Assembly (NCBI RefSeq): GCF_004346685.1
Contig: NZ_SMCO01000017.1
Location: forward strand, 1 to 64,000
DNA: 64,000 nucleotides
Direction: 5' to 3'
Source of the DNA: Sulfurirhabdus autotrophica
Lineage (GTDB): Bacteria > Pseudomonadota > Gammaproteobacteria > Burkholderiales > SMCO01
A program made the position numbers and the translations under genes. The notes beneath the pieces were generated by a model. It saw only the letters and a list, made by a program, of their open reading frames with translations, was not told where the DNA came from and made no database searches. Shown piece by piece: positions 5,767-7,736 of this stretch; within the stretch, counting starts at the first letter, position 1, and each line of letters begins with the position of its first letter.

Positions 5767-6252
5767 TTATGGACGAATGTAAGCATAGCCTTCGCGCTGC
5801 TTCTTCATCAGTTCAACAACACCGGCAGGAACGTAGCCAATTGTAGGCAACATATCATCTTTGGTCAGCTTCTGACCTTTCATGGTATTTTCACAAGCAA
5901 CTACTTTAACGCCAGATGCCAGCGCCTCATCAATACGGCTTGCTACAGGTGAGTCTATTTTAAGCATACTAATGCCAGGACCATAAACGACAATTTCAAG
6001 CTCTGCTTTCGCGCCCAGTTCTTGTCGTACATTTTTCGCATTGTTAAGCGCAAGATTCCAGTTTTTTGGATCGGCTTCACTCACCTGAAAAACCACCTTA
6101 TCAACGGAAGCTGGAGCAGGAGCTTCAACTTTAGCTTCTGCCTTTGCTTTGCTTTTACTGGATGCAACCGCTTGCCCAGCAAAAAAAGACATTGAAAGAA
6201 ACACAGCCATTAAAGTTGCGAAGAAAAAGTTTAAACGGTTCATTTGTGTCAT
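5767..6252 (-). CDS. Secreted DsrE-like protein
   Basis: A 161-residue protein. The start at 6252 is set by a GGAGG ribosome binding site 8 bases upstream; an in-frame start 105 bases further up would overlap the promoter. Residues 1-30 form a signal peptide ending A-V-A, and residues 31-49 are a Lys/Ala/Pro-rich linker. Residues 50-161 are a DsrE/DsrF-like alpha/beta domain with motifs GPGISML (91-97), a conserved cysteine in VACENT (Cys120) and a C-terminal GYVPAGV...REGYAYI. DsrE-type proteins elsewhere bind or relay sulfur through a cysteine, but this export-directed subgroup has no assigned reaction. The domain is clearly paralogous to the C-terminal domain of the anti-sigma factor encoded by the facing operon, and the two share a matching ECF-type promoter. 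Confidence 0.85.
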   Translation of the reverse strand: MTQMNRLNFFFATLMAVFLSMSFFAGQAVASSKSKAKAEAKVEAPAPASVDKVVFQVSEADPKNWNLALNNAKNVRQELGAKAELEIVVYGPGISMLKIDSPVASRIDEALASGVKVVACENTMKGQKLTKDDMLPTIGYVPAGVVELMKKQREGYAYIRP

Positions 6253-6309
6253 ATTTAAAACCTCCAATATAGTTATGTTGTATTTGTGATATTTTGTACC
6301 ACTACTTAC

Positions 6310-6339
6310 TAAGACGTAATACTGCTCTACTTTATTCCA
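6310..6339 (-). promoter_or_regulatory. Putative ECF-sigma promoter driving the DsrE-like gene
   Basis: On the minus strand, TGGAATAAA (6339-6331), a 13-base spacer, and ACGTCTTA (6317-6310). The GGAA-type -35 and CGTC-type -10 are hallmarks of ECF sigma promoters. The same elements with identical spacing occur in front of the sigma-factor gene. The start codon lies about 55 bases downstream. Known: ECF factors usually autoregulate. Inferred: the sigma factor next door uses this site. Confidence 0.75.
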
Positions 6340-6373
6340 TTTATTTTTTAATTTCAAAATATATTTTATTTAA

Positions 6374-6403
6374 TGGAATAAATCAGTAGGTTAGTACGTC
6401 TAA
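6374..6403 (+). promoter_or_regulatory. Putative autoregulatory ECF-sigma promoter
   Basis: TGGAATAAA (6374-6382), a 13-base spacer, and ACGTCTAA (6396-6403), 44 bases before the sigma-factor start codon. It is a near copy, in the opposite orientation, of the element at 6310-6339. Outside the two hexamer-like blocks the sequences differ, so this is not simply a duplicated segment. Confidence 0.75.
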
Positions 6404-6447
6404 TTTAATACCGATACTTCTTTAATTTATTTCCACTTCAACATGCG

Positions 6448-7008
6448 ATGAAAATTCTTTCTCTCTTCAGCCGTTCCAAAGCTTTCAACAATCAATTGGA
6501 AGCAAGCCGAACACGACTGTATCGCGTCGCATACGCATGGAGTCACGATCCGATGCTGGCTGATGACATCGTACAGGAAACATTAGCCAAGGCACTCAAA
6601 AATGCCGGAAAATTACGCGACATGGCGCAATTAAATGCCTGGCTTTTCAGCATTATGACGAATTGCTGGCGTGATCATTTCCGCCAGTTGAGGGAAACTG
6701 ACAATATTGAAGATATTGAAGACTTTCAATGCAGCCATGAAACCACCCCCGAGCATATAAGCAGCCAGACGCAAACTGTGACACGCGTGCGTGCTGCCGT
6801 CGAAAAACTCCCGCTGGGGCAGCGTCAAGTATTAACGCTGGTGGATTTAGAAGAGTTTTCCTATGTAGAAGTAGCTGCCATTCTGGACATACCCATTGGT
6901 ACCGTCATGAGCCGCCTATGCAGGGCGCGTAAATCCCTGAAAGCGCACTTGCAAGAGCTTGCTCCGCTTCAACCTGAGCAAGCCAACAAAATCCGGAGAA
7001 TTAAATGA
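6448..7008 (+). CDS. ECF-family RNA polymerase sigma factor
   Basis: A 186-residue extracytoplasmic-function sigma factor. Region 2 spans about residues 20-85 (LYRVAYAWSHDPMLADDIVQ, then AWLFSIMTNCWRD). Region 4 spans about 112-165, with a helix-turn-helix (EEFSYVEVAAILDIPIGTVM) and MSRLCRARKSL. Region 3 is missing, as expected for the class. The stop overlaps the start of the anti-sigma gene (ATGA, 7005-7008), the usual coupling of such pairs. It probably recruits RNA polymerase to the two divergent GGAATAAA/CGTCT promoters just upstream and to others elsewhere. No strong ribosome binding site precedes the ATG. Confidence 0.93.
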   Translation: MKILSLFSRSKAFNNQLEASRTRLYRVAYAWSHDPMLADDIVQETLAKALKNAGKLRDMAQLNAWLFSIMTNCWRDHFRQLRETDNIEDIEDFQCSHETTPEHISSQTQTVTRVRAAVEKLPLGQRQVLTLVDLEEFSYVEVAAILDIPIGTVMSRLCRARKSLKAHLQELAPLQPEQANKIRRIK

Positions 7009-7736
7009 AGCCCATTCAACCCATTTCAGATGAATTCCTGAATGCTTTTGTGGATGATCAACTGGAGTCTGAAGAAAAAGGTCAAGCATTTGACCTGATC
7101 GAACAAGACCCTCTTCTGAAAGAGCGGGCATGCGATCTTCGCGGCTTAAAAGAGGTGATGCAGCATGCCTACCAGGACCCACCTTCAGTCAGGAGAGCAC
7201 CCGCAAAAGGCGTCCCTTCATGGCCCCCGTTTTTCCAAGTTCTGGCTGCTGGCCTGCTGCTATTCATAGGTGGCACATCGGGCTGGCTTACCCACGCCTG
7301 GACGAGCCCAGACAGCGATCGCACCATGATTAACATGCTTCAGGCAACCCAGCGTAATAATCCCGGGATGGAGCCTAAAAAAATTATTGTTCACGTTGGC
7401 ACCTCCAATCCAGTCAGATTGAAAACAGCATTGGATGAAACAGAAAATTTACTGAACTCGTATCGTCAGAACAATCAGGAACTCGAAGTTGAAATAGTAG
7501 CAAACGGCAGAGGAATAAATTTGCTCCGCAGCAGCACATCTCCTTATAGCCTGCGCATTGCACAATTGCAGGAAAAATACCCTAATCTGGCACTTGTGGC
7601 ATGCCAGCAAACGTTGAACAAACTTGAAGAAAGCGGTGTAAGGGTAAAGCTCTTGCCGCACACTGGCATTGCGCCATCAGCTGTCGATCAAATCACTAAA
7701 CGCGTACAACAGGGATGGGACTACATAAAGGTATAG
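7005..7736 (+). CDS. Membrane anti-sigma factor with periplasmic DsrE-like domain
   Basis: A 243-residue protein. Residues 1-70 resemble the cytoplasmic sigma-binding domain of anti-sigma factors (DEFLNAFVDDQLESEEK, acidic helices). The zinc HxxxCxxC motif is absent. Residues 76-95 are a single membrane segment, and residues 125-243 are a DsrE-like domain predicted to lie in the periplasm. That domain matches the secreted neighbour at several points: NGRGINLL (167-174), VACQQT with Cys200, LPHTGIAPSAV (217-227) and QGWDYIKV at the end. Cotranscribed and overlapping with the sigma gene. Inferred role: it holds the sigma factor at the membrane until the periplasmic domain senses a signal. Known anti-sigma factors have varied sensor domains; I am not aware of this combination being described. 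Confidence 0.8.
   Translation: MKPIQPISDEFLNAFVDDQLESEEKGQAFDLIEQDPLLKERACDLRGLKEVMQHAYQDPPSVRRAPAKGVPSWPPFFQVLAAGLLLFIGGTSGWLTHAWTSPDSDRTMINMLQATQRNNPGMEPKKIIVHVGTSNPVRLKTALDETENLLNSYRQNNQELEVEIVANGRGINLLRSSTSPYSLRIAQLQEKYPNLALVACQQTLNKLEESGVRVKLLPHTGIAPSAVDQITKRVQQGWDYIKV

Follow-up and report, generated by a model that had tools for sequence, protein, structure and literature searches.

What does a transmembrane anti-sigma factor perceive when its predicted outer domain is a relative of the secreted protein encoded opposite it, and how is that relative tied to the sensor? This question is raised by a locus of Sulfurirhabdus autotrophica that lies in a 64,000-nt window of DNA (NZ_SMCO01000017.1, positions 1 to 64,000, forward strand), to which the coordinates below refer. 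The initial annotation had placed an ECF gene, an anti-sigma gene and a facing DsrE gene here, and all three were found at the positions given. The ECF sigma factor (6448..7008, forward strand, 186 aa) contains both Sigma70 region 2 (Pfam Sigma70_r2, 4.3e-13) and region 4 (Sigma70_r4_2, 2e-16), and the end of its gene is overlapped by the start of the downstream anti-sigma gene (7005..7736, forward strand), whose 243-aa product, recognised by Pfam, BLASTP and profile homology, has one predicted transmembrane helix, as befits an ECF sigma/anti-sigma pair. On the reverse strand, the gene of a secreted DsrE-like protein of 161 aa (5767..6252) faces this pair; its ATG at 6252 is preceded by GGAGG, and 195 bases separate its start codon from that of the ECF gene.

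The anti-sigma factor and its secreted paralogue

In the anti-sigma factor, an N-terminal anti-sigma domain (residues 1-75; 7005..7229, forward strand), assigned to the ECF26 kind by profile alignment with the protein encoded beside the presumed rpoE6 of S. meliloti pSymA, is followed by a predicted transmembrane helix at about residues 76-98 (7230..7298, forward strand), and a predicted periplasmic DsrE sensor domain (residues 125-243; 7377..7733, forward strand), assigned by BLASTP and profile comparisons. The helix, the only hydrophobic segment of the protein, is indicated by hydrophobicity, by a positive-inside pattern and by the pSymA alignment. Among 110 homologues, the hydropathy of this segment reaches 1.6 in 88, and lysine and arginine are more numerous before than after it in 99, equally numerous in six and fewer in five. 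In the secreted protein, residues 1-30 (reverse strand) are a likely signal peptide, a signal-peptide-like stretch ending in AVA-S as judged by eye. The claim that both DsrE domains lie outside the membrane is thus borne out as a prediction, from the helix and its positive-inside pattern on one side and the signal-peptide-like stretch on the other. Additionally, a hydrophobic stretch ahead of the domain was present in all 88 distinct neighbouring DsrE genes examined (75 loci), as the sequences of exported proteins would have it. In the same genome, G000:C7:103742-104047 (L003), a 294-codon open frame, matches only the N-terminal domain and the transmembrane helix (query 4-101) and probably encodes, to judge from its sequence, an anti-sigma factor with a different sensor.

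The secreted protein belongs to the DsrE/DsrF-like family (PF02635) by its Pfam score (37.9 bits, above the cut-off of 22.7), by the family cysteine and by its modelled fold, and its profile matches that of the solved DsrE-family protein 1l1s with E 1.5e-30. In structure predictions made from two-row alignments (window and L023 sequences), the core of the secreted protein was usable, and a Foldseek search with this model returned 1l1s as best match (E 2e-8) and a DsrEFH chain as fourth, the match to TusBCD being weak (E 0.024); the model of the anti-sigma factor, with a mean pLDDT of 47 from its two-row alignment, was unusable. DsrEFH, TusBCD and MTH1491 (1l1s) have the fold of the modelled secreted protein, and 1l1s also shares the aligned cysteine. 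However, DsrEFH and TusBCD serve cytoplasmic sulfur relay, whereas a periplasmic location is predicted for the DsrE domains of this locus, of which one is part of an anti-sigma factor.

The paralogy of sensor and secreted protein, proposed by the initial annotation, was confirmed by a single BLASTP comparison (28% identity over 118 columns, E 4e-11) and by a profile-profile comparison of ten main-kind sensors with the secreted DsrE protein (hhalign, E 7.2e-19 over 113 columns), and all the motifs that had been listed as common to the two proteins are present in both. When two sensors from the genus g85 were added to the main-kind profile, the E-value against the secreted DsrE protein fell to 2.4e-31, a gain that reflects their greater closeness to the secreted protein. 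The window's sensor itself scores 20.2 bits against PF02635 (E 7e-4), under the cut-off of 22.7, and one of six other main-kind relatives scanned lies above it (L023, 22.9); its assignment to the DsrE family follows from profile homology, including that of the main-sensor profile with 1l1s (E 6.3e-13), and from the aligned cysteine.

This cysteine gave a stronger result than had been claimed for it, since it is not only shared but the lone cysteine of each DsrE domain: Cys200 in the sensor (codon 7602..7604, forward strand, located through aligned homologues) and Cys120 in the secreted protein (codon 5893-5895, reverse strand). Exactly one cysteine, at the DsrE cysteine position, was found in the last 125 residues of 110/110 sensors, and the neighbouring DsrE proteins have exactly one within their last 118 residues (88/88). 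As a lone thiol is unable to form a disulfide inside the domain, a persulfide, a thiosulfonate, an S-sulfonate or an intermolecular bond would be the more likely modification of Cys200. Formation of a Cys-S-thiosulfonate has been reported for DsrE3A of Metallosphaera (PMC4175335).

Paired promoters and the link to ECF26 and sox genes

The intergenic region holds two divergent copies of one ECF promoter motif, GGAATA-N16-CGTC, predicted from its conservation: one leads into the secreted DsrE gene (6313..6338, reverse strand) and the other into the ECF-anti-sigma operon (6375..6400, forward strand). In 102 main-kind loci, each taken once in the promoter and neighbour counts, 138 copies were found in 45,517 bp upstream of ECF genes versus 21 in 957,363 bp elsewhere, an enrichment of about 138-fold, while a reversed control pattern occurred not at all upstream of ECF genes and once elsewhere. 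Of the 100 anti-sigma genes with enough sequence upstream, 79 had the motif ahead of the ECF gene and 21 did not; 58 had it in the divergent direction and 55 in both. Throughout the window's genome, the strict motif had three matches, two of them at this locus, against four of the reversed control, which is not above background, and with free spacing there were six matches against six of the control; therefore, the evidence for these promoters is their conservation across loci and not their rarity in the genome. The third strict match (G000:C16:36252) was set aside as chance, with no convincing gene behind it. Because the paired divergent motif is conserved over the loci, the secreted DsrE gene is predicted to be within the regulon of the sigma factor, which agrees with the co-regulation that had been suggested for it.

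Both window promoters match the published ECF26 consensus, with GGAAT at –35 and CGTC at –10 (PMC6527743). The ECF26 pairs described in S. meliloti and St. novella (RpoE4, SigE, RpoE1 and RpoE6) are reported to use the same promoter and to have the anti-sigma gene directly downstream. For RpoE4 and SigE, a response to sulfite or to compounds that generate it has been reported (PMC6527743, PMC3511301); however, their reported targets are sorT or sorAB and not DsrE or sox genes. The comparison with ECF26 was made through the promoter and one presumed member, RpoE6 of pSymA, and the pSymA stretch used carries no annotation, so that this identity is presumed: the gene was taken as rpoE6 because it is divergent from a subtilase-type protease gene (by eye), as described in PMC6180224. 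The window's ECF factor is 37% identical to this presumed RpoE6 over 142 columns, and the two anti-sigma factors align over the N-terminal domain and transmembrane helix (residues 2-97; E 2.8e-7 in a restricted profile comparison), with no alignment past residue 97 and no DsrE match in the pSymA protein. Since the N-terminal domain and helix align and the C-terminal part does not, the window's protein appears to be an ECF26-like chassis with a different sensor. The difference in the C-terminal periplasmic domain holds for the single ECF26-type anti-sigma factor compared, and this domain is not known to define ECF26; according to the text available, the C-terminal domains of ECF26-type anti-sigma factors have been likened to that of RsiW (PMC6180224).

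Additionally, several relatives are linked to sulfur oxidation genes. A divergent sox operon begins with a DsrE gene in L025 and L080, soxY is directly divergent in L090, L092 and L094, and the promoter motif is present at all five of these loci; in L028 and L089, sox genes lie downstream of the anti-sigma gene. SoxB and SoxY of L025 and SoxA, X, Y and B of L028 were identified with NCBIfam, and Sox proteins elsewhere were named by BLAST to those of these two loci. Extra SoxY copies were observed upstream of the ECF gene (L028:6616-7516, L089:7240-7710); L028 also has an extra copy of the start of SoxA, its extra copies being 100% identical to those of the operon. At the level of whole genomes within the order, SoxY was found in 48 of the 51 that encode a full-length anti-sigma factor and in 199 of the 348 that do not (Fisher 4e-8, uncorrected for relatedness), and the three exceptions are draft genomes. 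The sox operon of the window's own genome (C20) is unlinked, and the relaxed motif was not found in the 16 kb fetched around it, so the predicted regulon there may be this locus alone. In other bacteria, ECF control of sox genes has been reported in Arcobacter (PMC3445524), which belongs to the Campylobacterota and for which the text available does not contain the word DsrE, and a Hyphomicrobium SoxR repressor responds to sulfane sulfur (PMC10451225).

Distribution and sensor lineages

Of 399 genomes of the order, 51 were counted manually as having a full-length relative of the anti-sigma factor, which in two cases is in two pieces; for the class, the manual count was 66 of 369, and the window's own genome is included in both figures. 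In a phylum sample of 329 genomes, whole-protein matches were confined to three genomes of the order that had been found before, one of them the window's own; a scan of the genome contigs gave one relative only. The DsrE anti-sigma factor was not found in the plasmid searches, where none of 17 records covered 80% of the query. One Azospirillum plasmid encodes a free DsrE-like protein, sensor-like in sequence, directly behind a gene of the site-2 protease family (L240:2721-4378).

The locus set was drawn from all 51 genomes of the order and, the window's genome aside, from 48 of the 65 genomes of the class sample with full-length matches, mostly the best scoring. It comprises 110 anti-sigma genes at 108 loci, and six of these genes are of a second type. 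The expected co-occurrence with ECF factors in related genomes proved complete, an ECF gene being adjacent to the anti-sigma gene in 110/110. In the fetched flanks, a further DsrE gene was found for 77 of the 110, SoxY, A, X or B genes for 17, one or both kinds for 85 and neither for 25. At L190 and L196, two ECF/DsrE-anti-sigma pairs stand in tandem; a DsrE gene comes after them and a further one faces them. A porin-like gene lies beside the DsrE or the anti-sigma gene in the flanks of 55 of the 110, and this recurring porin is possibly the outer-membrane entry for the sensed anion. Examples are L024:2659-4080, L025:5696-7123 and L026:7241-8578, the last being a Porin_O_P.

The second type of anti-sigma factor combines a zf-HC2 N-terminal domain, a transmembrane segment and a DsrE domain, with zf-HC2 and DsrE above the Pfam cut-offs in all four proteins scanned. 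Six full-length matches were obtained in the order sample of 399 (L029 and L219-L223, in genomes G047, G091, G010, G131, G321 and G240). All six have an ECF gene of their own next to them, together with one or more other DsrE genes and, at one locus (L223), sox genes. The second-type ECF factor is 32% identical to that of the window (62 bits), the pSymA ECF factor being closer (37%, 92 bits). No GGAATA-N15/16-CGTC was found at the second-type loci; by eye and simple count, divergent pairs of GGAATAAA-like elements were noted in their intergenic regions, in some cases with a second box resembling CGGTAT.

The relationships of the sensors were examined in trees built after removal of one fragment. 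The first tree left out 37 of 110 rows (10 window-genome paralogues, 12 divergent and 15 near copies) and contained one second-type row; the second was made from 69 chosen rows, including six of the zinc-finger type. In these trees, the second-type sensors fall among a second class of secreted DsrE proteins, and a single clade of all sensors was rejected (AU p 4e-5 with one second-type row, 1.7e-5 with six). A clade of main and zinc-finger sensors was not firmly rejected (AU p 0.026 and 0.106, respectively), nor was one of main and g85 sensors (AU p 0.46). The best trees contain three sensor lineages. Two or more switches between sensor and free protein are required, and the unrooted tree leaves their direction unproven. 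With the secreted DsrE protein of the window, the g85 sensors (L115-L120) share 49-55% identity, and with the window's anti-sigma factor 24-30%. They may represent either a slow lineage or a separate recruitment; given the AU p of 0.46, we do not claim that their domain was swapped in separately from the secreted protein.

A candidate periplasmic sulfur signal

The architecture, the homology, the paired promoters, the conserved linkage and the lone cysteine, all features of sequence, are those from which we infer release of the sigma factor, a sulfur ligand and feedback. It is probable that a periplasmic sulfur species, acting on the lone cysteine directly or via the secreted paralogue, frees the sigma factor. 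The ECF26-type cytoplasmic N-terminal domain of the transmembrane anti-sigma factor would hold the ECF sigma factor until reduced sulfur compounds, such as thiosulfate, sulfite, polysulfide or oxidation intermediates, reach the periplasm, where the sensor cysteine would be modified or a sulfur ligand bound on the DsrE domain. The anti-sigma factor would then let go, and the sigma factor would transcribe its own operon and the divergent secreted DsrE gene; some relatives would add sox operons to these targets, and probably a porin gene. Most likely, the task of the secreted paralogue is to carry or buffer sulfur in the periplasm, and it may also act back on the sensor. Carrier, buffer, competitor and co-receptor are its candidate roles; the initial annotation had suggested heterodimerisation with the sensor or competition for one ligand. 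A more specific proposal, which we put forward only tentatively, is that sulfur from Sox-type chemistry is taken up by the secreted DsrE protein and passed, cysteine to cysteine, to its anti-sigma paralogue, the cell thereby reading the load of its own carrier, in a design that would have arisen at least twice, on two different N-terminal domains.

Alternatively, the secreted DsrE protein could be the true sulfur receptor, whose docking, loaded or unloaded, to the anti-sigma DsrE domain sets sigma release in the manner of DsrEFH/TusBCD oligomers. The solved relatives DsrEFH and TusBCD are indeed hetero-oligomers, the second of them only weakly matched by the model, and other DsrE genes lie near most of the anti-sigma genes, as counted above; however, for eight anti-sigma genes the fetched flank contains sox genes and no DsrE gene, although one may be elsewhere in the genome, and an invariant sensor cysteine would be needless for a mere dock. 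This reading is unlikely. Another, improbable one is that the lone thiol makes the sensor respond to oxidation in general or to metal stress in the periplasm, with the link to sulfur being secondary. Sulfenylation or metal binding is conceivable for a single cysteine located there, and the 25 anti-sigma genes with neither DsrE nor sox neighbours in the fetched flanks would suit such a role, but the DsrE fold, the sox linkage, the co-occurrence with SoxY and the sulfite precedents reported for ECF26 (PMC6527743, PMC3511301) argue for a sulfur signal. That the DsrE domain is a passive, ligand-free periplasmic stalk, with regulated proteolysis triggered by other envelope proteins, is highly improbable, since, even if proteolysis is the textbook signalling route of many anti-sigma factors, the lone cysteine is invariant in 110 proteins, the DsrE motifs are conserved in the aligned sample and two types of anti-sigma factor carry the domain.

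A sensor related to a product of its regulon has a precedent in RsgI anti-sigma factors, whose outer domains also resemble such products (CBM, GH); RsgI is Gram-positive and polysaccharide-sensing, and its domains are unrelated to DsrE. In Clostridium thermocellum, RsgI factors are described as sensing substrates and regulating cellulosome genes (PMC12203970). The initial annotation knew of no previous report of a DsrE-bearing anti-sigma factor, and none was found in the accessible text of the open-access literature; the architecture is real and widely conserved, and it appears to be undescribed so far. To that annotation, the present analysis adds the sox link, the ECF26-type promoter and N-terminal domain, the second type of DsrE anti-sigma factor and the parallel with RsgI.

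A sensor with an invariant cysteine, its secreted paralogue and a defined promoter make sulfur sensing directly testable in this system, which would be the second case, after RsgI, in which a sensor is similar to something that its own regulon encodes. These findings connect signalling by ECF factors with the Sox-type oxidation of sulfur in many genomes within the order and class and suggest a way in which sulfur-oxidising bacteria may sense the sulfur compounds that surround them.
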